DNA of 43,062 bases from assembly GCA_016191165.1 (NCBI GenBank), contig JACPPF010000090.1, forward strand, positions 1-43,062, written 5' to 3'. Under the pieces are notes generated by a model. That model did no database searches. It had not been told where the DNA came from and was given only the letters and a program-made list of their open reading frames with translations. The DNA comes from Planctomycetota bacterium. GTDB lineage: Bacteria > Planctomycetota > Planctomycetia > Gemmatales > Gemmataceae. Of this stretch, positions 5,541 to 35,821 are shown piece after piece (position 1 is the stretch's first letter; the number at the start of each line of letters is the position of its first letter). The translations under genes and the position numbers were made by a program.

Positions 5541-5593
5541 CGACGGGCCGGATGCCCGTCGATGTCCGTGTTTTTTCAAAAGGAGAGTCTGTC

Positions 5594-5926
5594 ATGCATT
5601 TCGCCAAAGTGTCCCTGATGGGCTTGATGGCCCTGGCGTTGGCTAGTTTCGCCGTCGCTCAAGGCCCTGCGCCTGCGTCCACCAGCATTCTCGTGCCGAA
5701 GATGCACTGCAAGGGCTGCGCGCAGAAGATGGCCACGGAACTGTACAAGGTTCCGGGCGTCGGCCAGGTGTTCGTCAGCGTCGAAACCAAGACGATGACG
5801 GTTCGCGCCAAGGATGGCCAGGCGCCGTCGCCGCGCGGGATGTGGGAAGCGGTGGAGCGGGCCGGCTACCAGCCGAACCGGCTGCAAGGCCCGGGCGGTG
5901 TCTTCACCAGCAAACCGAAATCGTGA
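5594..5926 (+). CDS. periplasmic HMA-domain metal-binding protein
   Basis: The 110-residue product has a cleavable signal peptide (MHFAKVSLMGLMALALASFAVAQ) and one heavy-metal-associated domain with the metal site MHCKGC (Cys39 and Cys42) followed by the usual AQKMATELYKVPGV helix. HMA domains bind Cu(I), Zn(II), Hg(II) or similar ions through the two cysteines. The ATG at 5594 is preferred because AGGAG stands 9 nt upstream; longer versions lack a signal peptide. The export signal makes this a periplasmic binding protein of MerP/CopZ type. Its sequence provides the in-window reference for the UGA-containing HMA protein at 26174. Confidence 0.8.
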   Translation: MHFAKVSLMGLMALALASFAVAQGPAPASTSILVPKMHCKGCAQKMATELYKVPGVGQVFVSVETKTMTVRAKDGQAPSPRGMWEAVERAGYQPNRLQGPGGVFTSKPKS

Positions 5927-9578: not shown

Positions 9579-9608
9579 CAATGGTTCCCAATGTCAGAGG
9601 AGCGTGCC

Positions 9609-12113
9609 ATGAGATTTCGTTTTCGATTTCCTGGTAGCCGACAAGGACGCGCCATCGTGGCTGCGGCCAGTTTGTTGGTGACCGTCGCGGTCACCTGGCT
9701 TTTCGCTCACGAGGGTCACGCGCCGTTGCCAACCAGAGGCGTTCAGGTGGACACGGCGAAGGGAACCGTCGTTCTTATGCCGGACGCCCGCAAAGTCCTG
9801 GACCTGGACGCCGACATCGTGAAGCCGCGCGTGGTGAACGAAAAACTGCTGGCTTATGCGACGTTGGTGGCGCCCTGGCAAAAGCACGCCTTTGCCTCGA
9901 CACGGCTTCCCGGGCGCATTGTCAAGATCAACGTGAAGCCTGGTGAGTTCGTTCCTGCCAAGCACGTGTTGGCGGAAGTGCAAAGCTTGGAGCTGGAAGA
10001 CTTGCAGCTGGAGATTCTCAACAATCAAACGGCCATTGAACTCTCCGATCAGGTCGTGGAAGAAATGAAGCCGCTGGCAAAGCAAGGCGCGATCGCGGAC
10101 AGAGATTATCGCGAAGCTCTCTCCAAGCAAGAGCAGAACAAGAACGCTCAAAAAATTGCCCATGCCAAGTGGCTGAGCTTGGGCTTGGGGGCTGATAAGT
10201 ATAAGCAACTTCTCGCAACCAAGACGCGCGTTGTCGCCACGATGCCGATCGTGAGTGTTACGGGAGGGACGGTGATCCATGCCGACGTTGCCGAGGGCCG
10301 AGTCGTGGAGCCGACCGAGCACCTGTTCGAGATCATCGACCTGTCGAGCGTCTGGGTGAAGATCGGCGTCCTGGAGCGGGATCTGCACCGCGTGCAGGTC
10401 GGGCAAGTCGTCGAATTGCGCTTTGCCGCTTACCCGGACGAAGTCACGTCCGCGGCCGTCCAGATCAAAAGCCTTTACCTGGACCCAGCGACCCATCTTG
10501 CCACGGTGTGGGCGGAGCTAAAGAACGACGCCAAAATGCCGCGTTTCTTGCCGGGGATGCACGGGCAGGCCCATATTGTCCTCGCGCCGCCCGGCGACGT
10601 TTTGACGGTGCCGAGCGATGCCGTGGCGAGCGACGGCGTTGAACGCTACGTGCTGGTCGAAACTGTGGCCCCGGACAAGCAGGGGAAAAAGCCGACCGAG
10701 TACAAGAAAGTCCATATCACGACCGGCTTGCACAATGGCGAGTGGACGCAAGTCACTGGAGGCGATCTATTCGGCCAGGATCGTGTCGTGACCAAGGGTC
10801 TGCACCAGTTATCCAGCTTCTTCATGGCTGGGATTCTGCGGCTCAGTCCTGAAGCTGCAAAAAACTTCGGGGTCGCCGTAGAAACCGTTGAGCGCCGGGC
10901 TGTTGAGGAGGTCTTGGAACTGCAGGGAACGGTGGACGTGCCGCCGGACCGGCGCTCGTTTGCCTCGGGACAGTTGCCTGGCAAGATTCAACGGATAGCC
11001 ATCGAGCGCAACCAAGAGATCAAGAAGGGTGAAATCGTCGCGGAAGTGGCAAGTCTGGAATTGCAAAAGCTGCAACTCGACCTTCTGCAAGCCCACTTGC
11101 AACTCGGCCTTTTGAAGGAAACCCTTGATCGCCTGGCCAAGGTTGAAACCATCGTGTCGCGCAAGCAACTATGGGAAGCGAAGAGTTCGTACAACGAAGT
11201 CGTCAATCGCCGGGAAAGCTTGAAACGGAAACTGGAGGCGGTCGGGCTGGAAGAAAGACAGATCAAGGGAATCCTCGAAAAGACAGAACTGGTCGATGCG
11301 TTGCCGATTCGCGCCCCTCGGGATGGCGTCGTCGTCCGATTCGACAAAGCGTTGGGTCAGGTCATCAAGGCCGATGAGCCGCTGTTTGAAATTCATGATT
11401 TGTCGCAAGTCTACGTGCAGGGGTTCTTGTCCGAGAAGGACGTGCCTGCCGTTCGCGTCGGTCAAAAGGTTCGTGTACGCCTGGTTGCCGATCCGGGATT
11501 TCTTGGCGAAGGAAAAGTAGCGCGGAGCGGACAAGTCGTCGGCCAGGACAGCCGAGTCTTGTCTTTCTGGGTCGAGTTAGACAAGCAGCCAGCCCAGCGA
11601 TTGGAGCATAATTTGCTTGCGCGAGTAAGCGTTTCGGTCGGCAAGTCCGAGGCGACGCTCGCCGTGCCTCTGGGCGCTTTGGTCAATGAGGGGACGCGCT
11701 CATACGTCTTCGTTCGCCGCTTCCAGCTGATCGGCACGTCGGTTGACGCCCTGGAAAAAAACGGCTTCCCCGGCAAGGCAGTCGAAAAACTGTCAGAGTT
11801 GGCGTCGAAGAGTTTCGCCACGGAAGAAAAACTGCGATCGGCATTCGACCAAACGCTGGCGGCTTCGGAACTTCGCCAGGGCCTCTCGGCCGAAGAGGTG
11901 GAATCGCTGGACAAAGCGATGGAGGATGCAACGCATCGCGAGCGGCTTGTGCGGGAGGCAGTCCGAAGTCCCGTTTTCGAGCGGCGTCTGGTCGAGGTGG
12001 GCCGGCGGGCGGATGATCGCTTTGCCGAGATCGTTGCCGGCCTGGTATCCGGTGAAAGCGTGGCTGTGAAGGGAACGCGCGCCTTGCAAACCGCCTACGC
12101 GGGCATTCGTTAG
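9609..12113 (+). CDS. RND efflux periplasmic adaptor, tandem fusion of two adaptor modules
   Basis: The product is 834 residues (ATG 9609 has AGAGGAG 6 nt upstream; an upstream ATG at 9591 lacks one). Usual adaptors of this HlyD/CusB class are about 350-500 residues. Here two complete modules follow each other. Module 1 (about 45-400) has lipoyl-like half FASTRLPGRIVKINVKPGEF, a helical hairpin, second lipoyl half and beta-barrel (VWVKIGVLERDLHRVQVGQ). Module 2 (about 405-834) repeats the plan: FASGQLPGKIQRIAIERNQE, hairpin, VYVQGFLSEKDVPAVRVGQ. The last domain carries an alpha-helical insertion of about 90 residues (about 710-800). One N-terminal membrane segment is followed by HEGHAP. It ends 8 nt before the pump gene. 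Confidence 0.85.
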   Translation: MRFRFRFPGSRQGRAIVAAASLLVTVAVTWLFAHEGHAPLPTRGVQVDTAKGTVVLMPDARKVLDLDADIVKPRVVNEKLLAYATLVAPWQKHAFASTRLPGRIVKINVKPGEFVPAKHVLAEVQSLELEDLQLEILNNQTAIELSDQVVEEMKPLAKQGAIADRDYREALSKQEQNKNAQKIAHAKWLSLGLGADKYKQLLATKTRVVATMPIVSVTGGTVIHADVAEGRVVEPTEHLFEIIDLSSVWVKIGVLERDLHRVQVGQVVELRFAAYPDEVTSAAVQIKSLYLDPATHLATVWAELKNDAKMPRFLPGMHGQAHIVLAPPGDVLTVPSDAVASDGVERYVLVETVAPDKQGKKPTEYKKVHITTGLHNGEWTQVTGGDLFGQDRVVTKGLHQLSSFFMAGILRLSPEAAKNFGVAVETVERRAVEEVLELQGTVDVPPDRRSFASGQLPGKIQRIAIERNQEIKKGEIVAEVASLELQKLQLDLLQAHLQLGLLKETLDRLAKVETIVSRKQLWEAKSSYNEVVNRRESLKRKLEAVGLEERQIKGILEKTELVDALPIRAPRDGVVVRFDKALGQVIKADEPLFEIHDLSQVYVQGFLSEKDVPAVRVGQKVRVRLVADPGFLGEGKVARSGQVVGQDSRVLSFWVELDKQPAQRLEHNLLARVSVSVGKSEATLAVPLGALVNEGTRSYVFVRRFQLIGTSVDALEKNGFPGKAVEKLSELASKSFATEEKLRSAFDQTLAASELRQGLSAEEVESLDKAMEDATHRERLVREAVRSPVFERRLVEVGRRADDRFAEIVAGLVSGESVAVKGTRALQTAYAGIR

Positions 12114-12121
12114 GAACGATC

Positions 12122-15100
12122 ATGCTGAACCATGTCATTGCCTGGTCCCTGAAGAATCGCGTGGTGGTGATGCTCACCGCCCTCGTGATGATTTCCTACG
12201 GCGTCTACAAACTCCAGCAGATGCCGGTGGACGTGTTCCCTGAACTGAACCGCCCGACCGTCACGATCATGACGGAAGCGCCGGGCCTTACGCCGGAACT
12301 TGTGGAAATCCAGGTAACCCGGCCCATCGAATACCTCCTTAACGGCGCTACGGGAGTGCAGCGCGTGCGTTCCGCGTCGGCAGTCGGCTTGTCGATTGTC
12401 TGGGTCGAATTCGAATGGGGCACCGACATCTACCGGGATCGGCAAATCGTTTCCGAAAAGCTGCAACTGGCACGGGCGCAACTGCAGGGCGACATCAACC
12501 CCGTGATGGCGCCTATCTCGTCCATCATGGGCGAGATCTTGCTCGTGGGCGTGCGCTCCACGGCGGACCTGAAAACGCCCAAAGCGCGGCTCGACAAGGG
12601 CATGGAGTTGCGGACCCTGGGGGAGTTCACCATTCGCAATCGTCTCTTGGCCGTGGAAGGTGTATCCCAGGTCACGGTCATGGGCGGCGTCCTCAAGCAA
12701 TACCAGATCATCACCTCGCCGGCGCGCCTGGCGGCCCAGAATGTCTCCTTGCAGCAACTTACCGAAGCGGCGGAAAAAGCCAACGTCCTCGCCGGCGGCG
12801 GCGTCATGGTGCGCAAAGCCAGGGAATCGCTCATCAACATCAGCGGCCAAAGCCTCGCGCTGAAAGACATCGAGAACACCGTCGTGCTCTGGCGCGATCC
12901 CCGGCCCGTGTTGATCAAGGACGTGGCCGAGGTCCGCTTCGGCGGCCCGCTGCAGCGCGGCGACGGCAGCATGAGCGTGCGCCACGAAAAAACGGAGCAG
13001 TTTTCCGGCGGCCCAGCGGTGATCATGACCATTCTCAAGCAACCGAGCGTGAACACGTTGGTCCTTACACCCAAGATTGAAGAAGCCCTGAAACAACTGC
13101 AAAAAGAACTGCCCTCAGACGTGCACATCGAAACCCGCATCTTCAAACAGGCCGACTTCATCCAGGTGGCGGTGGACAACGTGATTGAGGCCGTGCGCGA
13201 CGGCACGATGTGGGTGATCGTCGTGCTGTTCATCTTCCTGTGGAACTTCCGCACCAGCGCCATTACGCTCACCGCGATTCCGTTGTCGCTCTTGATGACC
13301 GTCCTCATCTTTGCCTATTTCGATATCTCCATCAACACCATGACGCTCGGCGGTTTGGCGGTGGCCATCGGCGAGCTGGTCGATGACTCCATTGTCGATA
13401 TCGAGAACATCTTTCGGCGACTCAAGGAAAACAAGCACAAGCCCAGGCCCGAGAACGCGCTCAAGGTCATCTTCCTCGCTTCCGCCGAAGTGCGCAATTC
13501 CATCGTGTTCGCCACGCTGATCGTGGTGGTTGTCGTCGTGCCTCTCTTCTCCTTATCCGGCATCGAAGGGCGAATGTTTGCCCCGCTGGGCCTGGCTTAC
13601 CTCATCACGCTGCTTTGTTCGCTGGTCGTCTCCTTGACGGTGACGCCGGTGTTGGCTTCATTCCTCTTACCAAACGCGAAGTTCATGGAGAAAGAGGGCG
13701 ATCCGTTCGTGTTGCGCTGGCTGAAGAAATTCGATGAAAAAGTGCTGCGCTGGACACTGCGGCGTCCCTGGCCGATCCTGATCGCGACGATTGTCCTGGC
13801 GATCGCCTCGAAGGTCGTGATGCTGTGGATGGGATCCGAGTTTCTGCCCCCCTTTAACGAGGGGACCTTTACCGTGAACCTGGAATCCGAGCCGGGAATC
13901 AGTCTGCAAGAAAGCGGCCGGATCGCTGGCCGTGCCGAGGACCTTTTGCTCCAACTGCCCGAAGTATTGTCGGTATCGCGCCGCACCGGCCGGGCCGAAC
14001 TGGACGAACACGCGGAAGGGGTGAACGTCTCGGAAATCGACGTGCGCGTGCAAGAGCACGAAGTTCCCAAAACGGGCACCGGCTGGGCATTCGTGCGCGC
14101 GGTCCCCGGCTTGCATCGCTGGGGCGTTGACACGTACGGCCGGCCGCGCGATGAGGTGCTCGCCGACATTCGCGATCAAATCAGCACCATCCCCGGCGTG
14201 AAGCCGAATATCGGTCAGCCGATCTCCCACCGCATTGACCACATCATGTCCGGTGTACGGGCTCAAATCGCCGTGAAAGTATTCGGGCCGGACTTGCGCG
14301 AGTTGCGCACGAAAGCGGCCGACATCCAGACGCGCATGAGCAAGATTCCCGGCGTGGTGGATCTGAAAATCGAGGCGCAAATTGAGATTTCCCAGATTCG
14401 CCTGGAAGTAGACCGGAAAGCCCTGGCGGAGTATGGCTTGGCCCCTGGCGACATGACCAAGCTCTTGGAAACCGCCTACAAGGGCCGCGTGGTTTCGCAA
14501 GTCCTGGACGAGGACCGCTGGTTCGGGTTGGTCGTTTGGTACGACGAATCCGCCCGCAACAATCCCGCCGTCATTCAGCAAACGATCCTCGATACGCCGT
14601 CGGGCCGCAAAGTGGCGCTGGGGCAGGTTGCGCGAGTTCTCGACACGACGGGCCCCAACACGATCATGCACGAAAACGTGCTGCGGCGCATCGTGATCTC
14701 TTGCAACGTGGCGGATCGGGATCTGGGCAGCGTGGTAGCTGATATTCAAACGGCCTTGAAGCCCGTTGAGGAACAACTGCGGACGCTGCCGGGAAGTTAC
14801 CGCATCGAATACGGCGGCCAGTTCGAGGCGCAACAGTCGGCCACATTCCGTCTTGGCATTCTGGCGATCTTCGCGGTGATCGTCGTCTTCATCCTGTTGT
14901 GGAAATGCCTGGATTCCTGGGTGGCTGCTTTCCAGGTCCTGTTGGTCAACATTCCCCTGGCGGCGATCGGTTCGGTGATTGCCCTGATGCTTGTCAATTG
15001 GCCCAGCTGGGACAAGTTGCATGATGCTCCATGGTATGCCTGGCCAAAAGTATGGGCGGAAGCAACCACACTTTCTGTCGCGCATTGGGTCGGCTTCATC

Positions 15101-15598
15101 ACGCTTATCGGCATCGTCTGTCGCAACGGCATCATGATGATTTCTCACTACATCCATCTGATGAAGCACGAAGGCGAGCAGTTCGACGAGAAGATGATCA
15201 TTCGCGGCAGCCTGGAACGCCTGGCGCCAGTGCTGATGACGGCGATATGCGCCATGGTCGGCTTGATTCCGCTGGCACTTGGCGCTGGCCAAACGGGTAA
15301 GGAGATTCTCTACCCGGTTGCGCTGGTTGTCCTGGGCGGTTTGCTCGATTCGACCATCATGGATCAGGTCGTGACGCCGGCCGTCTTTTTCTTGTTCGGC
15401 AAGACGTTTGGACCGGGCATTTACTTCCACAAAGAGAAGGCCGAAACGGAGGCCCAAGAGCTGGAGCGCACCGCGAACGAACAGTTCCCGGATCCTCCGG
15501 AGCGAACGAAGCAGACAGCCGATTCTAAAGATGGCCATGTTTCGCCGGCTCGGGACATTGCCGTGGTGGGCAAGGACGGGGCCATCGGAAGCGGATGA
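12122..15598 (+). CDS. heavy-metal-type RND efflux pump, CusA/CzcA-like
   Basis: The 1158-residue inner-membrane proton antiporter has the HME-RND architecture: an N-terminal helix (NRVVVMLTALVMISYGV), the typical opening MPVDVFPELNRPTVTIMTEA, porter domain, a first helix bundle with GELVDDSIVDIEN (residues 417-429, the proton-relay region), a second porter half (GPDLRELRTKAADIQTRM) and a second bundle with GIVCRNGIMMISHY. It expels metal ions from periplasm or cytosol through the outer-membrane factor. The ion is not decided by the sequence; Cu/Ag or Zn/Co/Cd are possible. A charged C-terminal tail of about 55 residues (FHKEKAETEAQELERT...) is longer than I would expect. An extra segment near residues 960-985 (NWPSWDKLHDAPWYAW) interrupts the second bundle. 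Confidence 0.9.
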   Translation: MLNHVIAWSLKNRVVVMLTALVMISYGVYKLQQMPVDVFPELNRPTVTIMTEAPGLTPELVEIQVTRPIEYLLNGATGVQRVRSASAVGLSIVWVEFEWGTDIYRDRQIVSEKLQLARAQLQGDINPVMAPISSIMGEILLVGVRSTADLKTPKARLDKGMELRTLGEFTIRNRLLAVEGVSQVTVMGGVLKQYQIITSPARLAAQNVSLQQLTEAAEKANVLAGGGVMVRKARESLINISGQSLALKDIENTVVLWRDPRPVLIKDVAEVRFGGPLQRGDGSMSVRHEKTEQFSGGPAVIMTILKQPSVNTLVLTPKIEEALKQLQKELPSDVHIETRIFKQADFIQVAVDNVIEAVRDGTMWVIVVLFIFLWNFRTSAITLTAIPLSLLMTVLIFAYFDISINTMTLGGLAVAIGELVDDSIVDIENIFRRLKENKHKPRPENALKVIFLASAEVRNSIVFATLIVVVVVVPLFSLSGIEGRMFAPLGLAYLITLLCSLVVSLTVTPVLASFLLPNAKFMEKEGDPFVLRWLKKFDEKVLRWTLRRPWPILIATIVLAIASKVVMLWMGSEFLPPFNEGTFTVNLESEPGISLQESGRIAGRAEDLLLQLPEVLSVSRRTGRAELDEHAEGVNVSEIDVRVQEHEVPKTGTGWAFVRAVPGLHRWGVDTYGRPRDEVLADIRDQISTIPGVKPNIGQPISHRIDHIMSGVRAQIAVKVFGPDLRELRTKAADIQTRMSKIPGVVDLKIEAQIEISQIRLEVDRKALAEYGLAPGDMTKLLETAYKGRVVSQVLDEDRWFGLVVWYDESARNNPAVIQQTILDTPSGRKVALGQVARVLDTTGPNTIMHENVLRRIVISCNVADRDLGSVVADIQTALKPVEEQLRTLPGSYRIEYGGQFEAQQSATFRLGILAIFAVIVVFILLWKCLDSWVAAFQVLLVNIPLAAIGSVIALMLVNWPSWDKLHDAPWYAWPKVWAEATTLSVAHWVGFITLIGIVCRNGIMMISHYIHLMKHEGEQFDEKMIIRGSLERLAPVLMTAICAMVGLIPLALGAGQTGKEILYPVALVVLGGLLDSTIMDQVVTPAVFFLFGKTFGPGIYFHKEKAETEAQELERTANEQFPDPPERTKQTADSKDGHVSPARDIAVVGKDGAIGSG

Positions 15599-15782: not shown

Positions 15783-17096
15783 ATGCGAAGCCTTCGAAGC
15801 AATCGCCGATTGACGATCCGGTGGCTGGCCGGTCTGCTCGTTCTTCTGGTCAGCGCGGGCACTGGTTATTGCCAACGCATCGCAGCGCTGGGGACACCCC
15901 AGGTGGCGCCCGCGCCCAAGACTTCGATTCGCTTGGCGAATCTCATCGATATCGCCCTCGAACGAAACCCGGAGTTGAAGGCCGCCGGATTTGAGATCGA
16001 GGCGGCGCGCGGCCGAGCGGTGCAGGCCGGACTGTACCCCAATCCCGTCATCACAATCGTGGGCGATGAACTGGGAGACCGGACCGGACCCAAAGGGGTC
16101 AACACTTTGCCGCTGGTAACCCAGGAGATCGTGACGGCCGGCAAGCTGCGCTTGGCGAGATCCGTTGCGGAGAGGGAAACTGATCTCGCGGGTCTTGTCC
16201 TTGCCCGTCAACGGCTCATTCTTCTGACCACGGTTCGTCTAGGTTATTTCGAGGTAATCGCCGGTCAACGGCGAGTCGAGGTGCTCACGAAACTGGTTGG
16301 GCAGGCAACCGAATCGTCCAACAACGCCAAGAAGCTCGTTGGCGCGGGCCAAGCTGCCAAACAGGATGGCTACCAGTTCGAAATAGAGCTTGAGCGGTTG
16401 ACGGCGGAAAAGGAAGCGGCCGAGCGTGAGTTGGCCGCTGCCTGGCGCCGGCTGGCAGCGAGCATGGGCGTGCCAACGCTTCCTTATCCGCAATTGGAAG
16501 GGAAGCTGGATGCGGCCATTCCCGAATATGATTTCGAGCGGGCCCGCGTGTACGTGATCGCAGTCCATCCAGAGGCTCGTTTCGCCGAGGTGGCCATTAC
16601 ACGCGCCGATCTGTTTGTGAAATACCAACAAGCGCTGCGTGTGCCCAACATCGCGATCGGCGCCGGCTACGTTCGGCAAAACCAGAATCAGTCCAGCGAC
16701 TACACGCTGCAACTGAGTGTTCCCGTGCCGCTTTTCAATCGCAACCAGGGAAACATCCGCTCGGCCCAAGCCAGTTATTCAAGAGCGACCGTGGACCGGG
16801 AAAGCGTGCAGAACGATCTGACGAAACGGCTGGCAACGGCTTACGGACAATACGCGGCCTCGAAGGCCCGCGTCGAACGCTTTCGAAAAACCATTCTCCC
16901 GAAGGCCGAGGAGTCCTACAAGTTGACCTTGGCGGCGTTTAAGGGCGTGAAATTCGAGTATCTGAGCGTCCTTCAGGCCCAGGGTGTCAATAAAGAGGCC
17001 AACCTTACCTACATCCAGGCCCAATTGGATCTTTGGCGGGCTGGGTCCGAGATCGCCGGCCTGCTTGGCGAAGAAGAGTGGCCGTTCCAGAAATGA
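15783..17096 (+). CDS. TolC-family outer-membrane factor of the metal exporter
   Basis: The 437-residue product has a signal peptide (LTIRWLAGLLVLLVSAGTGYCQ) and the duplicated helical-hairpin plan of outer-membrane efflux proteins. The block IRLANLIDIALERNPELKAAGFEIEAARGR starts the first repeat (quoted here only for its Leu-x-x-Leu pattern and NPEL core), NPVITIVGDE gives the first beta strand and SDYTLQLSVPVPLFNRNQGN the second. The spacing and the VPLFNRNQG motif are those of CzcC/CusC-like partners. It follows the pump by 184 nt with no terminator, so the three genes form one tripartite exporter operon. AAGGAAG precedes the ATG. Confidence 0.85.
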   Translation: MRSLRSNRRLTIRWLAGLLVLLVSAGTGYCQRIAALGTPQVAPAPKTSIRLANLIDIALERNPELKAAGFEIEAARGRAVQAGLYPNPVITIVGDELGDRTGPKGVNTLPLVTQEIVTAGKLRLARSVAERETDLAGLVLARQRLILLTTVRLGYFEVIAGQRRVEVLTKLVGQATESSNNAKKLVGAGQAAKQDGYQFEIELERLTAEKEAAERELAAAWRRLAASMGVPTLPYPQLEGKLDAAIPEYDFERARVYVIAVHPEARFAEVAITRADLFVKYQQALRVPNIAIGAGYVRQNQNQSSDYTLQLSVPVPLFNRNQGNIRSAQASYSRATVDRESVQNDLTKRLATAYGQYAASKARVERFRKTILPKAEESYKLTLAAFKGVKFEYLSVLQAQGVNKEANLTYIQAQLDLWRAGSEIAGLLGEEEWPFQK

Positions 17097-21737: not shown

Positions 21738-22595
21738 ATGAGCGTCCGAAAGCATATTTCGAGACACGGAAAGGCCTCCCGCCAAGATGGGACACCCTTG
21801 ACGGGGATGACGCTGAAAATCGGCGTCATGGGCGGAGCTACCGGAAGGATGACCAAGCGTCATCTCGACGTGGCGCATCGGGTTGGCCAGGCGATCGCTC
21901 GTAATGAGTGCATCTTGATTACGGGTGCATGCCCCGGCCTGCCGTTGGCGGCTGCTTGCGGCGCCAAGCAGGAAGGCGGGTTTGTGGTCGGTATCTCGCC
22001 GGGCCTCAGCCTGGATGAGCACATTTTCAAGTATCAGTCGCCCACGGAATTCCACGACGTGCTGATTTATACAGGCAGCGGCCTGATGGGACGGGAAGTC
22101 GTGAACATCCGCAGCTCCGACATGGTGGTCATCATCGGCGGCCGCAGCGGCACGCTGGGCGAGTTGGCCATCGCCTACGACGAGGGAAAACTGATCGGCG
22201 TGTTGACCGGCACCGGTGGCATCAGCGACCTGGTGGCCGACATTCTCAGGGCTTGCAAGAAAGAAACCGGATCCAAAGTTGTCTACGACGCTGACCCAGA
22301 GAAGCTAATCAAAACGTTGCTGCGAGTTTACCGGGCCGAGCATTATCAGCGACCATCGTGTTTCTGCGCGGAGCGTCCTCCCGGCTTCTGTGCGCAACAT
22401 CCTTCCGGCGAAACCGGCGACGGGGAACCGGAACTGGCCGTCGATCCGGTGTGCGGAATGAAGATCGCTCCGCAAGCAGCGGCGGCCAAGCGCAAAAGGA
22501 GCGGACAAACATTCGTTTTCTGTTCGCCAGCCTGCGTCAAACAGTTTGACGCTGATCCCAGCAAGTATGCCGGAAAGGAGAAGAGCCATGTTTGA
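21738..22595 (+). CDS. LOG/SLOG Rossmann-fold protein fused to a C-terminal YHS domain
   Basis: In this 285-residue protein, residues about 28-205 are a LOG-family (TIGR00725-like) Rossmann fold: KIGVMGGATG, a long helix, ILITGACPGLPLAAACGA, and the nucleotide/phosphate loop GGRSGT (134-139) followed by LGELAIAYDEGK. LOG proteins hydrolyse nucleoside 5'-monophosphates at the ribose bond or bind such ligands. After a Cys-rich linker (CFCAERPPGFCAQH), residues 236-280 form a YHS domain: DPVCGM (236-241), then FCSPAC with C262 and C266. YHS domains bind metals. The fusion suggests metal control of a nucleotide enzyme; this is inference. The stop overlaps the next start (ATGTTTGA). Confidence 0.8.
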   Translation: MSVRKHISRHGKASRQDGTPLTGMTLKIGVMGGATGRMTKRHLDVAHRVGQAIARNECILITGACPGLPLAAACGAKQEGGFVVGISPGLSLDEHIFKYQSPTEFHDVLIYTGSGLMGREVVNIRSSDMVVIIGGRSGTLGELAIAYDEGKLIGVLTGTGGISDLVADILRACKKETGSKVVYDADPEKLIKTLLRVYRAEHYQRPSCFCAERPPGFCAQHPSGETGDGEPELAVDPVCGMKIAPQAAAAKRKRSGQTFVFCSPACVKQFDADPSKYAGKEKSHV

Positions 22596-26065: not shown

Positions 26066-26173
26066 GCGCTGTCCCGCAACGAGAATGTTGGCTGACTCTC
26101 AGCCGAGAAGACCGGCGAACAGGCTGTCGATCCTCTAAGTTGTCAATGCCTGGAGAGATTCTGGAGGTGTAAC

Positions 26174-26722
26174 ATGAGAAAGTTCGTTTGTCTCGCGACC
26201 ATCGGCATGGTGGCGTTGGCCGTCAGCGGCAACGCGCAGGACTCCAACAAGCAACCGGCCAAGGGAGAGATCACCAGGGCGATGTACTGGGTCCCGAACC
26301 AGCACTGACTGGAATGCGCGACGGCCCTGGAGGGGTCGATGAAGAAGGTCGGTGGAGTCAAGTCCATCACGGTGAGTTTCCTTACCAGGTGGGCCACCGT
26401 CGAATTCGATGAAAGCGTCATTTCGGCGCAAGAGCTTTCCCGTGCGATGTTCCAAGCCCCGCACGCGATGGGCAAGGATATGAAATATGGCGGGTTCCTG
26501 CTCCTGAGCCTGCCGGACGCCAAAGACAAAGCGACGCAAAAAAAAGCGACGACCACCCTGGAGAAAGTGGGAGGCGTGGCAAAAGCGGCTTACTATCCGC
26601 AAACAAAGTTCGTCGCCATTCAGTTCGCCGACAAGGGCAAGGTTACGAGCATCCAGCTAATCAAGGCGCTCGAAGCCGCAGGCGTGAAGGCAAGCCAAGC
26701 CGGCGCCAAGACTAAAAAATGA
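26174..26722 (+). CDS. exported double HMA-like protein with in-frame UGA at the first metal-binding Cys (candidate selenoprotein)
   Basis: Starting at ATG 26174 (GGAGG 6 nt upstream), codons 1-22 give a good signal peptide (MRKFVCLATIGMVALAVSGN). Codon 45 is TGA (26306-26308). The same frame continues to TGA at 26720 for 182 residues in all, with no frameshift. Around the UGA the protein reads VPNQH-UGA-LEC-ATALEGSMKKVGGV, which aligns with VPKMH-C-KGC-AQKMATELYKVPGV of the HMA protein at 5594. The UGA therefore replaces the first Cys of CxxC, giving UxxC if read as selenocysteine. A second HMA-like half without cysteines follows (about 95-170). A hairpin sits 11 nt after the UGA. The alternatives are a nonsense mutation, a sequencing error, or restart at ATG 26339. 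Confidence 0.6.
26319..26338 (+). promoter_or_regulatory. candidate bacterial SECIS-like hairpin after the in-frame UGA
   Basis: CGAC (26319-26322) pairs with GTCG (26335-26338), and CCC (26325-26327) with GGG (26332-26334). GG (26323-26324) is bulged and the loop is TGGA. The stem starts 11 nt and the loop about 20 nt after the UGA, the range where bacterial SECIS elements lie, and the loop has G residues. G+C-rich DNA makes chance hairpins common, so the support is modest. Confidence 0.3.
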
Positions 26723-26861
26723 GTAACTCTTTAGCCGTTTGAAGTTGGCAACAAGACGGGACCTCTAAGGAAGGCAGGAACGCAGGAACCTGAATACTTG
26801 ACCTTTCCTGTCTTCCTGCCTTCTTTAGAGTGTTATCTATTTCAGACGGCTAAAGAGCAAC
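26723..26861 (+). mobile_element. MITE-like element, 139 bp, with terminal inverted repeats and 8-bp direct repeats
   Basis: CTCTTTAGCCGTTTGAA (26727-26743) is inverted at 26841-26857 with one mismatch, and the outer four bases are partly paired (GTAA against GTTG). A nested second inverted repeat, CTCTAAGGAAGGCAGGAA (26763-26780) against 26813-26830, has one mismatch. The element is flanked by AAAAATGA on both sides (26715-26722 and 26862-26869), as expected of an 8-bp target duplication. The left copy contains the stop codon of the HMA gene. No transposase is encoded, so it would depend on one elsewhere. It could also be read as a long two-tier hairpin that ends transcription. Confidence 0.6.
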
Positions 26862-33958: not shown

Positions 33959-35821
33959 ATGGCTATGCAGTTTTCTTTGAAAGACCCGGTGTGCGGCATG
34001 TCCGTGCGCGATGATGCCGCTTTCACGGTGTCGTTCCATGGGCAGAGATTCTGTTTCTGTTCCGAGTTCTGCAAGAAGGCATTCGTGCAGGATCCGGAGA
34101 AATATGCGGCCCCGAACATTCCGTTGGGCGCCACCGATAATGACATGGCGCGGCGGATTGCCTACTTCTCGATGGAGGTGGCGGTTGAGCCGGACATGCC
34201 GACCTACAGCGGCGGGCTGGGCGTCCTGGCGGGGGACACGCTGCGCTCCGCGGCCGATCTGCGGATTCCCGTGGTCGCCGTCACGTTGCTCTCGGCGAAA
34301 GGATACTTCGATCAACAGCTTGATGAGTGGGGCAATCAGCGAGAAGCCCCGGTCGCGTGGAACCCGGCTTCCAATGCACGCAAGTTGCCGGAGCGTGTTG
34401 AGGTCACAATCGAGGGGCGGAGCGTGCACGTCGGTGCTTGGCAACATGACATCATCGGGAATACGGGCTATCGCGTTCCGTTGTTGCTTTTGGACACAAA
34501 TGACGAAGGCAATTCGCCCGCCGACCGAGAGCTGACGGCGTATTTGTATGGGGGCGATCAGCGCTACCGGCTGGCTCAAGAGGTCATCCTGGGGATTGGC
34601 GGCGTGCGCATGCTTCGTGCTCTGGGCTATCGTCAGGTGGAACGATTCCACATGAACGAGGGACACGCCGCGTTGCTCGTATTGGAACTCCTTGGTGAGG
34701 GGCAACCGTCGGCAAAGCCAGGTTGGGATTTCAACGGCATTCGGGAAAGCTGCGTTTTCACCACGCACACCCCCGTGCCGGCCGGCCATGACCAGTTCGG
34801 CTACGATCTCGTTTCCCAGATCCTGGGCGAACAATGGCCCCTGGACGTGCTGCGGATGCTCGGAGGCGCGGATCGGCTCAACATGACTTGCTTGGCCCTG
34901 AACCTCAGCCATCGCATCAACGGCGTCGCCAAGAAGCACGGCGAAGTCTCGCAAGCGATGTTTCCGGGCTACGCCATTGATTCCATTACCAACGGCGTCC
35001 ATTCCGTCACCTGGACAAGCGACTCATTTCGATCGCTTTACGACCGTCACATTCCGGGCTGGCGCAACGATCCCGCGTCACTGCGACATGCCATGAGCAT
35101 CTCCGTGAACGAGATTTGGCAGGCCCACGTCGCCGCGAAGGAGAAGTTGATCGAGGCAGTGGCCCGCCAAAGCCAAGTAACCCTCGATCGCGACGTGTTG
35201 ACGATCGGGTTTGCCCGCCGCGCGACCGCCTACAAACGGGCGGACTTGATCTTTGCCAATCTTGAGCGTCTGCGCGAAATCAGTCGCACGGCCGGCCCGT
35301 TGCAGTTGGTGTTCGGCGGGAAAGCGCATCCGCACGACAACGGCGGCAAGGACCTGATCCGGCGCATCTTCGATGCGGCCAGGCAACTGAAGGATTGCAT
35401 CAAGGTTGTTTATCTCGCCAACTACGATCTAGCCTTGGCCAAAGTGCTGACCGCAGGTGTCGATCTCTGGCTGAACACTCCGCTTCGGCCCCTTGAAGCC
35501 TCGGGAACATCGGGCATGAAAGCAGCGCACAACGGCGTGCCGAGCCTGAGCATTTTGGACGGCTGGTGGATCGAGGGCCATATCGAAGGCGTCACTGGCT
35601 GGTCCATCGGCAACCGAGATTCGGCCTCGTCTTCCTCTGAACAGATGACCGCTGAAGATGCTGCCGACCTCTACGCGAAACTCGGCACGGTGGTCCTGCC
35701 GACCTTTTACCGAAATCGTGAGCGGTGGATTGAAATCATGCGGCAAGCGATTGCGTTCAACGCATCGTTTTTCAACACGCATCGCATGGTGCAACAATAC
35801 GCGGCAAATGCGTATGTGTGA
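33959..35821 (+). CDS. YHS domain fused to a GT35 alpha-glucan (glycogen) phosphorylase
   Basis: In this 620-residue product, residues 5-48 are a YHS metal-binding domain (DPVCGM at 9-14; FCSEFC with Cys34 and Cys38). From residue about 60 it is a short-type alpha-glucan phosphorylase: RIAYFSMEVAVEPDMPTYSG, GGLGVLAGDTLRS, HMNEGHAALL, TTHTPVPAGHDQF, and the PLP-binding Lys521 in GTSGMKAAHNG. The enzyme releases glucose-1-phosphate from glycogen. The YHS extension is not part of the usual enzyme and may sense metal. Its DNA start is duplicated as a fragment at 31367. The ribosome site is moderate. Confidence 0.85.
   Translation: MAMQFSLKDPVCGMSVRDDAAFTVSFHGQRFCFCSEFCKKAFVQDPEKYAAPNIPLGATDNDMARRIAYFSMEVAVEPDMPTYSGGLGVLAGDTLRSAADLRIPVVAVTLLSAKGYFDQQLDEWGNQREAPVAWNPASNARKLPERVEVTIEGRSVHVGAWQHDIIGNTGYRVPLLLLDTNDEGNSPADRELTAYLYGGDQRYRLAQEVILGIGGVRMLRALGYRQVERFHMNEGHAALLVLELLGEGQPSAKPGWDFNGIRESCVFTTHTPVPAGHDQFGYDLVSQILGEQWPLDVLRMLGGADRLNMTCLALNLSHRINGVAKKHGEVSQAMFPGYAIDSITNGVHSVTWTSDSFRSLYDRHIPGWRNDPASLRHAMSISVNEIWQAHVAAKEKLIEAVARQSQVTLDRDVLTIGFARRATAYKRADLIFANLERLREISRTAGPLQLVFGGKAHPHDNGGKDLIRRIFDAARQLKDCIKVVYLANYDLALAKVLTAGVDLWLNTPLRPLEASGTSGMKAAHNGVPSLSILDGWWIEGHIEGVTGWSIGNRDSASSSSEQMTAEDAADLYAKLGTVVLPTFYRNRERWIEIMRQAIAFNASFFNTHRMVQQYAANAYV

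Follow-up and report, generated by a model that had tools for sequence, protein, structure and literature searches.

The gene at positions 26174-26722 of the analyzed window, a stretch of 43,062 nt, is predicted from its sequence to encode a real selenoprotein with selenocysteine (Sec) inserted at an in-frame UGA. We put the probability of this reading at roughly 0.93. The gene had been proposed before as a candidate UxxC selenoprotein, and this was supported by SelA, SelB, and tRNA-Sec in the host genome, by orthologs with Cys or UGA at the same position, and by a hairpin shared with one distant ortholog, L167.

An In-Frame UGA Is Located at a Metal-Binding Cysteine Position of an HMA Protein

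The features of the gene and an ordinary HMA gene of the same window used for comparison are as follows:

5552..5926, + strand: gene used for comparison, encoding a secreted HMA protein of the ordinary Cys type (VPKMHCKGC)
26163..26167, + strand: ribosome-binding site GGAGG, 6 nt 5' of the ATG (direct reading)
26174..26722, + strand: gene for a secreted tandem-HMA protein of 182 aa, predicted Sec at residue 45 (Pfam HMA above cut-off; 11 orthologs)
26174..26236, + strand: signal-peptide-like N-terminus MRKFVCLATIGMVALAVSGNA (direct reading, judged by eye)
26285..26446, + strand: first HMA domain, residues 38-91 (PF00403 39.3 bits; predicted strand-helix-strand-strand-helix; match to MerP 1osd)
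26306..26308, + strand: in-frame UGA, proposed Sec, first Cys of CxxC (Cys in ten orthologs, UGA in L167)
26315..26317, + strand: TGC codon of C48, the other Cys in the metal motif, making U-L-E-C (invariant across orthologs)
26322..26338, + strand: SECIS-like hairpin CGGCCCU-GGA-GGGGUCG, 7 bp (loop GGA 26329-26331, 20 nt 3' of the UGA)
26495..26689, + strand: second HMA-like domain, which lacks Cys and spans residues 108-172 or so (predicted helix-strand-strand-helix; Foldseek match to tandem HMA of CopA and ATP7B; approximate boundaries)
26720..26722, + strand: stop codon TGA of the tandem-HMA gene

The original prediction had described a start with a ribosome site, a signal peptide, and an HMA frame that stays intact past one TGA, and our reading of the sequence bore this out, with an ATG preceded by GGAGG and a signal-peptide-like N-terminus. 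A single in-frame TGA (26306-26308) lies upstream of the final TGA in the frame 26174-26722, and the gene is otherwise intact. With Cys placed at the TGA, residues 38-91 matched the Pfam HMA model (PF00403) with 39.3 bits, compared to a cut-off of 24.8. The motif VPNQH-U-LEC aligned with VPKMHCKGC of the protein encoded at 5552-5926, which places the UGA on the first metal-binding Cys of CxxC, as had been claimed.

An open frame also exists from the ATG at 26339. If it started a separate 127-aa protein, the UGA would be a real stop between two products. A start at this position, inside the first HMA helix, would remove the metal site and the first strand, and the orthologs are single continuous proteins. 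We consider such a separate protein hardly conceivable.

Right 3' of the stop codon, the window contains a nested inverted repeat (26727-26857) with arms of 27 nt and 26 nt that are 81% and 88% complementary. The repeat may represent either a non-autonomous mobile element of small size or a long hairpin resembling a terminator.

Orthologs Carry Cys or UGA at the Same Position

The search for orthologs covered the family (95 genomes) and the class (397 genomes). The 11 orthologs found, of which the closest named records were MAGs of Gemmataceae, the family of the window genome, had a common build: a signal peptide, a first HMA domain with the motif, PHMMG and YGG kept, and a second HMA-like domain without Cys. 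The residue at the UGA position was Cys in 10 of them (GLHC-xx-C). L167, which belongs to another family of the class and whose protein is 41% identical, had TGA at the aligned position (GLH-UGA-PPC), with the frame intact on both sides. TAA or TAG was present at this position in none of the 11 orthologs. The alignment thereby agreed with the original prediction, as every homolog showed Cys or UGA there. A conserved in-frame TGA in at least two different sequences has been used as the criterion for a new selenoprotein cluster (PMC1088965), and the window gene and L167 are two such sequences.

In the tree, the window gene and L167 were placed in different clades (support 96/99), and the window gene joined two Cys genes. 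It follows that either Sec and the hairpin originated twice or the Sec form was ancestral and disappeared repeatedly.

A scan of the genome contigs with the single protein revealed no relative, the alignment-based scan revealed two, and a plasmid search gave no match. Apparent neighbors of the orthologs of about 172 aa turned out to be out-of-frame noise and were discarded.

The gene was not found in other species of the genus, in which G002 keeps just a remnant. This counts against the Sec reading and is in agreement with a recent nonsense mutation, which we judge to be unlikely. A Cys-type gene would then have acquired a new TGA at Cys45 and would be an early pseudogene, giving a secreted stub of at most 44 residues. 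That only one UGA in one genome is at issue also fits this explanation. On the other hand, 62 single-base changes in the gene could create a stop, and TGA at this Cys is just one of them.

We applied a four-taxon codon model to the region after the UGA. Omega on the window branch was 0.08, and omega = 1 was rejected (2dlnL 20.1); the region after the UGA is under purifying selection. Since synonymous change is saturated, this value speaks for long-term constraint and not against a very recent stop, after which omega and the frame would still be unchanged.

The remnant in G002 comprises 39 residues of the window protein (L005:1518-1640) and is located immediately 3' of a double-UGA HMA gene (GMT-U-PVG-U). 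This arrangement suggests that the two were neighbors before one of them decayed.

A Hairpin Downstream of the UGA Is Shared by Both UGA Orthologs

The best hairpin at SECIS spacing in the window gene was CGGCCCU-GGA-GGGGUCG, with a small apical loop that contains G, 20 nt after the UGA. A hairpin with a G-containing loop had been predicted to start 11 nt downstream of the UGA; the hairpin and its loop (GGA) are present, but the start is at 13 nt. The hairpin was defined on the window gene first, and L167 was found afterwards. The L167 hairpin, CGACGCU-GGA-AGCGUCG, has identical position, spacing, and loop, and all seven pairs are formed. Compared to the window gene, its stem has a C-G/G-C exchange at one pair and a change on one side at two others (G-U/A-U and U-G/U-A), all of which preserve pairing.

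None of the ten Cys orthologs had an unbroken stem; next to the loop, only the first 1 to 3 pairs are formed before the stem is interrupted. The codon preceding the loop encodes Leu (CTG) in both UGA genes and Val (GTN) in the ten Cys genes, and the GGA loop is due to this Val-to-Leu change. That a distant ortholog from another clade shares both the UGA and the hairpin, which is lacking in the Cys orthologs, makes a nonsense mutation unlikely. It also bears on an assembly or sequencing error with TGC or TGT as the true codon. The source is a draft genome from a single MAG, where an error may occur, but it would not add the Val-to-Leu change, which creates the GGA-loop hairpin and is present in both UGA orthologs and in 0 of 10 Cys ones. 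We therefore regard an error as very unlikely.

Two Cys orthologs retain 5-6 bp of a related hairpin with a wider loop, which counts against the Sec reading; we attribute this to the location of the hairpin in conserved coding sequence. When the gene was recoded with the protein kept and the codon usage taken from window genes, about 1% of recodings matched the energy of the hairpin (0.008, 0.015, and 0.010; P about 0.01). At a level of 0.05, this test was passed by 11 of 25 UGA sites and also by 4 of 16 Cys HMA control sites, and the energy test taken alone is weak.

Generic minimum-energy folding was set aside as evidence, since the folding energy around the UGA was unremarkable (z -0.7 to +0.1) and no better than that of shuffles. 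Another hairpin, which is weak (P 0.03) and has its loop, GUCAAG, 48 nt after the UGA, was dropped because it is absent in L167. The Rfam scan of the window gave no match.

The Host Genome Encodes Sec Machinery

The window is contig C55 of the draft genome G000, a single MAG of 7.2 Mb in 183 contigs that is 95% complete. The original prediction depended on Sec machinery in this genome, and the search was positive for SelA (559.9 bits, cut-off 268) and SelB (361.6 bits, cut-off 242), both with curated profiles. tRNA-Sec was detected with the Rfam model (73 bits, cut-off 47) and also by ARAGORN (anticodon tca). The presence of this machinery in the host argues against a nonsense mutation.

SelD was not found in the 95%-complete draft, which counts against the Sec reading. 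Three weak matches, which we take by sequence to be ThiL, HypE, and PurM, were dismissed as SelD candidates. Since each of the other six genomes in the genus has SelD above the cut-off, we take the missing SelD as a gap in the draft and not as proof of loss.

SelD occurs in two forms within this one genus. It has normal length with an in-frame TGA in G001, G004, and G006, while it is part of open frames of about 760-809 aa, probably fusions, in G002, G003, and G005. Complete Sec gene sets have been reported for Gemmata obscuriglobus (PMC4807772).

UGA Codons Recur at Cys Positions of HMA Proteins in the Genome and the Phylum

We built an HMA profile from Cys proteins only and ran it on all fetched loci with stops masked. 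The loci had been fetched with HMA queries and are hence a non-random sample, in which TAA and TAG were equally able to appear. The 120 distinct HMA hits contained 21 in-frame stops, and all 21 were TGA. Twenty of them were located in the two Cys columns. The remaining one, in L048, corresponds to the first U of GMS-U-AQG-C and falls outside these columns because the longer motif shifts the alignment. The recurrence of UGA, but not of TAA or TAG, at HMA Cys positions of this genome and the phylum is a further reason why a nonsense mutation is unlikely.

Two of the UGA-HMA genes are from the same genome as the window gene, one on contig C23 (GMT-U-ADG-C; G000:C23:89512-89838, L046 and L077) and one on contig C115 (GMT-U-RVG-U; G000:C115:38413-38712, L088). 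Both are selenoprotein candidates and fall into a Gemmataceae group whose members are small secreted HMA proteins, mostly with a lipobox-like motif, that carry UxxxU or UxxxC. The C23 lipoprotein gene sits in an OEP - HMA - CusB - CusA cluster.

The lipoprotein group has its own conserved hairpin, CUYUACC-GUG-GGUARAG, behind the UGAs. In the alignment, 97.7% of cells were paired and 4 of 7 pairs showed changes on both sides. The loop follows the first UGA by 47 nt and the second by 35 nt (alignment A2, columns 44-60, 19 loci). An additional, more variable hairpin lies in between, and these genes possibly have one SECIS per UGA. A covariance model of the lipoprotein hairpin (R1) matched these genes in 5 of 7 genomes of the genus. 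It did not match the window gene, which counts against the Sec reading.

UxxC was also found in other secreted HMA proteins of the phylum (L114, L126, L138, and L139). L114, L126, and L138 are planctomycete secreted proteins with two HMA units, and L138 has UGA at the first Cys of both.

Predicted Fold and Gene Neighborhood

The fold was predicted with moderate confidence (mean pLDDT 63.7) and consists of two HMA modules. In the predicted structure, the first module shows the beta-alpha-beta-beta-alpha-beta fold, and its first loop holds the metal motif. Foldseek retrieved tandem HMA domains of CopA and ATP7B, as well as MerP with 33% identity over the first module.

The window also harbors genes for an efflux system, given here as context only:

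9591..12113, + strand: RND periplasmic adaptor, CusB/HlyD type
12122..15598, + strand: CusA/CzcA-family heavy-metal RND pump (TIGR00914 715 bits, cut-off 701)
15783..17096, + strand: outer-membrane efflux protein, OEP (PF02321)

The window gene is not adjacent to these RND genes, as the CusA-family pump is located about 10 kb upstream, and this counts against the Sec reading. The orthologs L152 and L176 adjoin genes for CusB-type adaptors, the loci of L175 and L177 contain CusB and CusA (L175 also OEP), and a CusB gene is present about 4 kb downstream of L167. Two close orthologs have C-terminal tails rich in Met, Gly, and Cys, of the kind seen in proteins that handle Cu(I)/Ag(I). Based on the tandem-HMA fold, the orthologs near CusB and CusA, and these tails, the protein is most likely a periplasmic soft-metal chaperone or scavenger that would feed Cus/Czc-type RND efflux. 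Alternatively, the U-x-x-C pair may have a redox role.

Elsewhere in the window (21738-22592 and 33959-35818), YHS domains are joined to SLOG-type and carbohydrate-phosphorylase-type proteins. These are unusual metal-linked fusions.

Discussion

If the gene encodes a selenoprotein, the ribosome would read the UGA at 26306-26308 as Sec by means of the SelA, SelB, and tRNA-Sec of the host, with the GGA-loop hairpin of 7 bp (26322-26338) serving as the putative insertion signal (SECIS). The product would be exported to the periplasm and fold as two HMA modules. The first may offer a U-x-x-C site for a soft metal, possibly Cu(I), Ag(I), Hg(II), or similar, with the second as its Cys-less partner. 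The metal may then be handed to a CusBA/CzcBA-type efflux system, presumably in this direction. Compared to Cys, Sec would provide the softer ligand with the lower pKa, and soft metals would be bound more tightly by a selenolate site.

It is an evenly balanced question whether Sec has repeatedly replaced the metal-binding Cys in secreted HMA chaperones of Planctomycetota, in two or more protein families that each have a SECIS of their own. The two families would be the tandem-HMA proteins (UxxC, GGA-loop hairpin) and the Gemmataceae lipoproteins (UxxxU, two stacked hairpins, perhaps one per UGA). If true, this would represent a selenium-based route of periplasmic soft-metal trafficking coupled to RND efflux. 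Most known selenoproteins are redox enzymes, and Sec at a metal-binding position would allow a direct test of selenolate use as a metal ligand. Such a family stays hidden in databases because gene finders cut the proteins at the UGA. The pairs of Cys and Sec orthologs, with the hairpin in the Sec forms only, would also be a clean case of a SECIS arising within coding sequence.

The window protein stayed below the cut-off of every NCBIfam model. We found no literature on HMA selenoproteins of Gemmataceae in an incomplete search, and an earlier description of these families is possible. Like the window protein, the predicted selenoprotein family NF041115 (PMC13188914) has an HMA-type metal motif in which Sec replaces Cys. 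NF041115 has two Sec (UxxU) in a single domain of 74 positions, whereas the window protein is secreted, has two domains and the motif ULEC of the UxxC type, and reached 37.4 bits with this model (cut-off 95). Sec was also predicted in another HMA-type protein, a UxxC cation-transporting ATPase (PMC13188914). MerP is, likewise, a periplasmic HMA protein reported with Sec, in only two sequences of the GOS survey (PMC2398784). It has a single domain, in contrast to the two HMA modules of the window protein, which scored 46 bits with the MerP model TIGR02052 (cut-off 92.55); no mer genes were seen among the window proteins scanned. The MerT/CopZ fusion-like selenoprotein NF045683 shares the HMA module in a heavy-metal selenoprotein but has it fused to a MerT-type membrane part, and the score of the window protein was 30.3 bits (cut-off 375). 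CopZ and the N-terminal tandem HMA domains of CopA have the same fold and the CxxC metal site, but they contain only Cys and are cytosolic. The Gemmataceae UxxxU/UxxxC lipoproteins on C23 and C115 are from the same genome and also have UGA at an HMA Cys, for C23 in an RND neighborhood; they differ by a motif that is one residue longer, a single domain, and another conserved hairpin. Sec in HMA proteins is already known, and the window protein would be a new subfamily among them.
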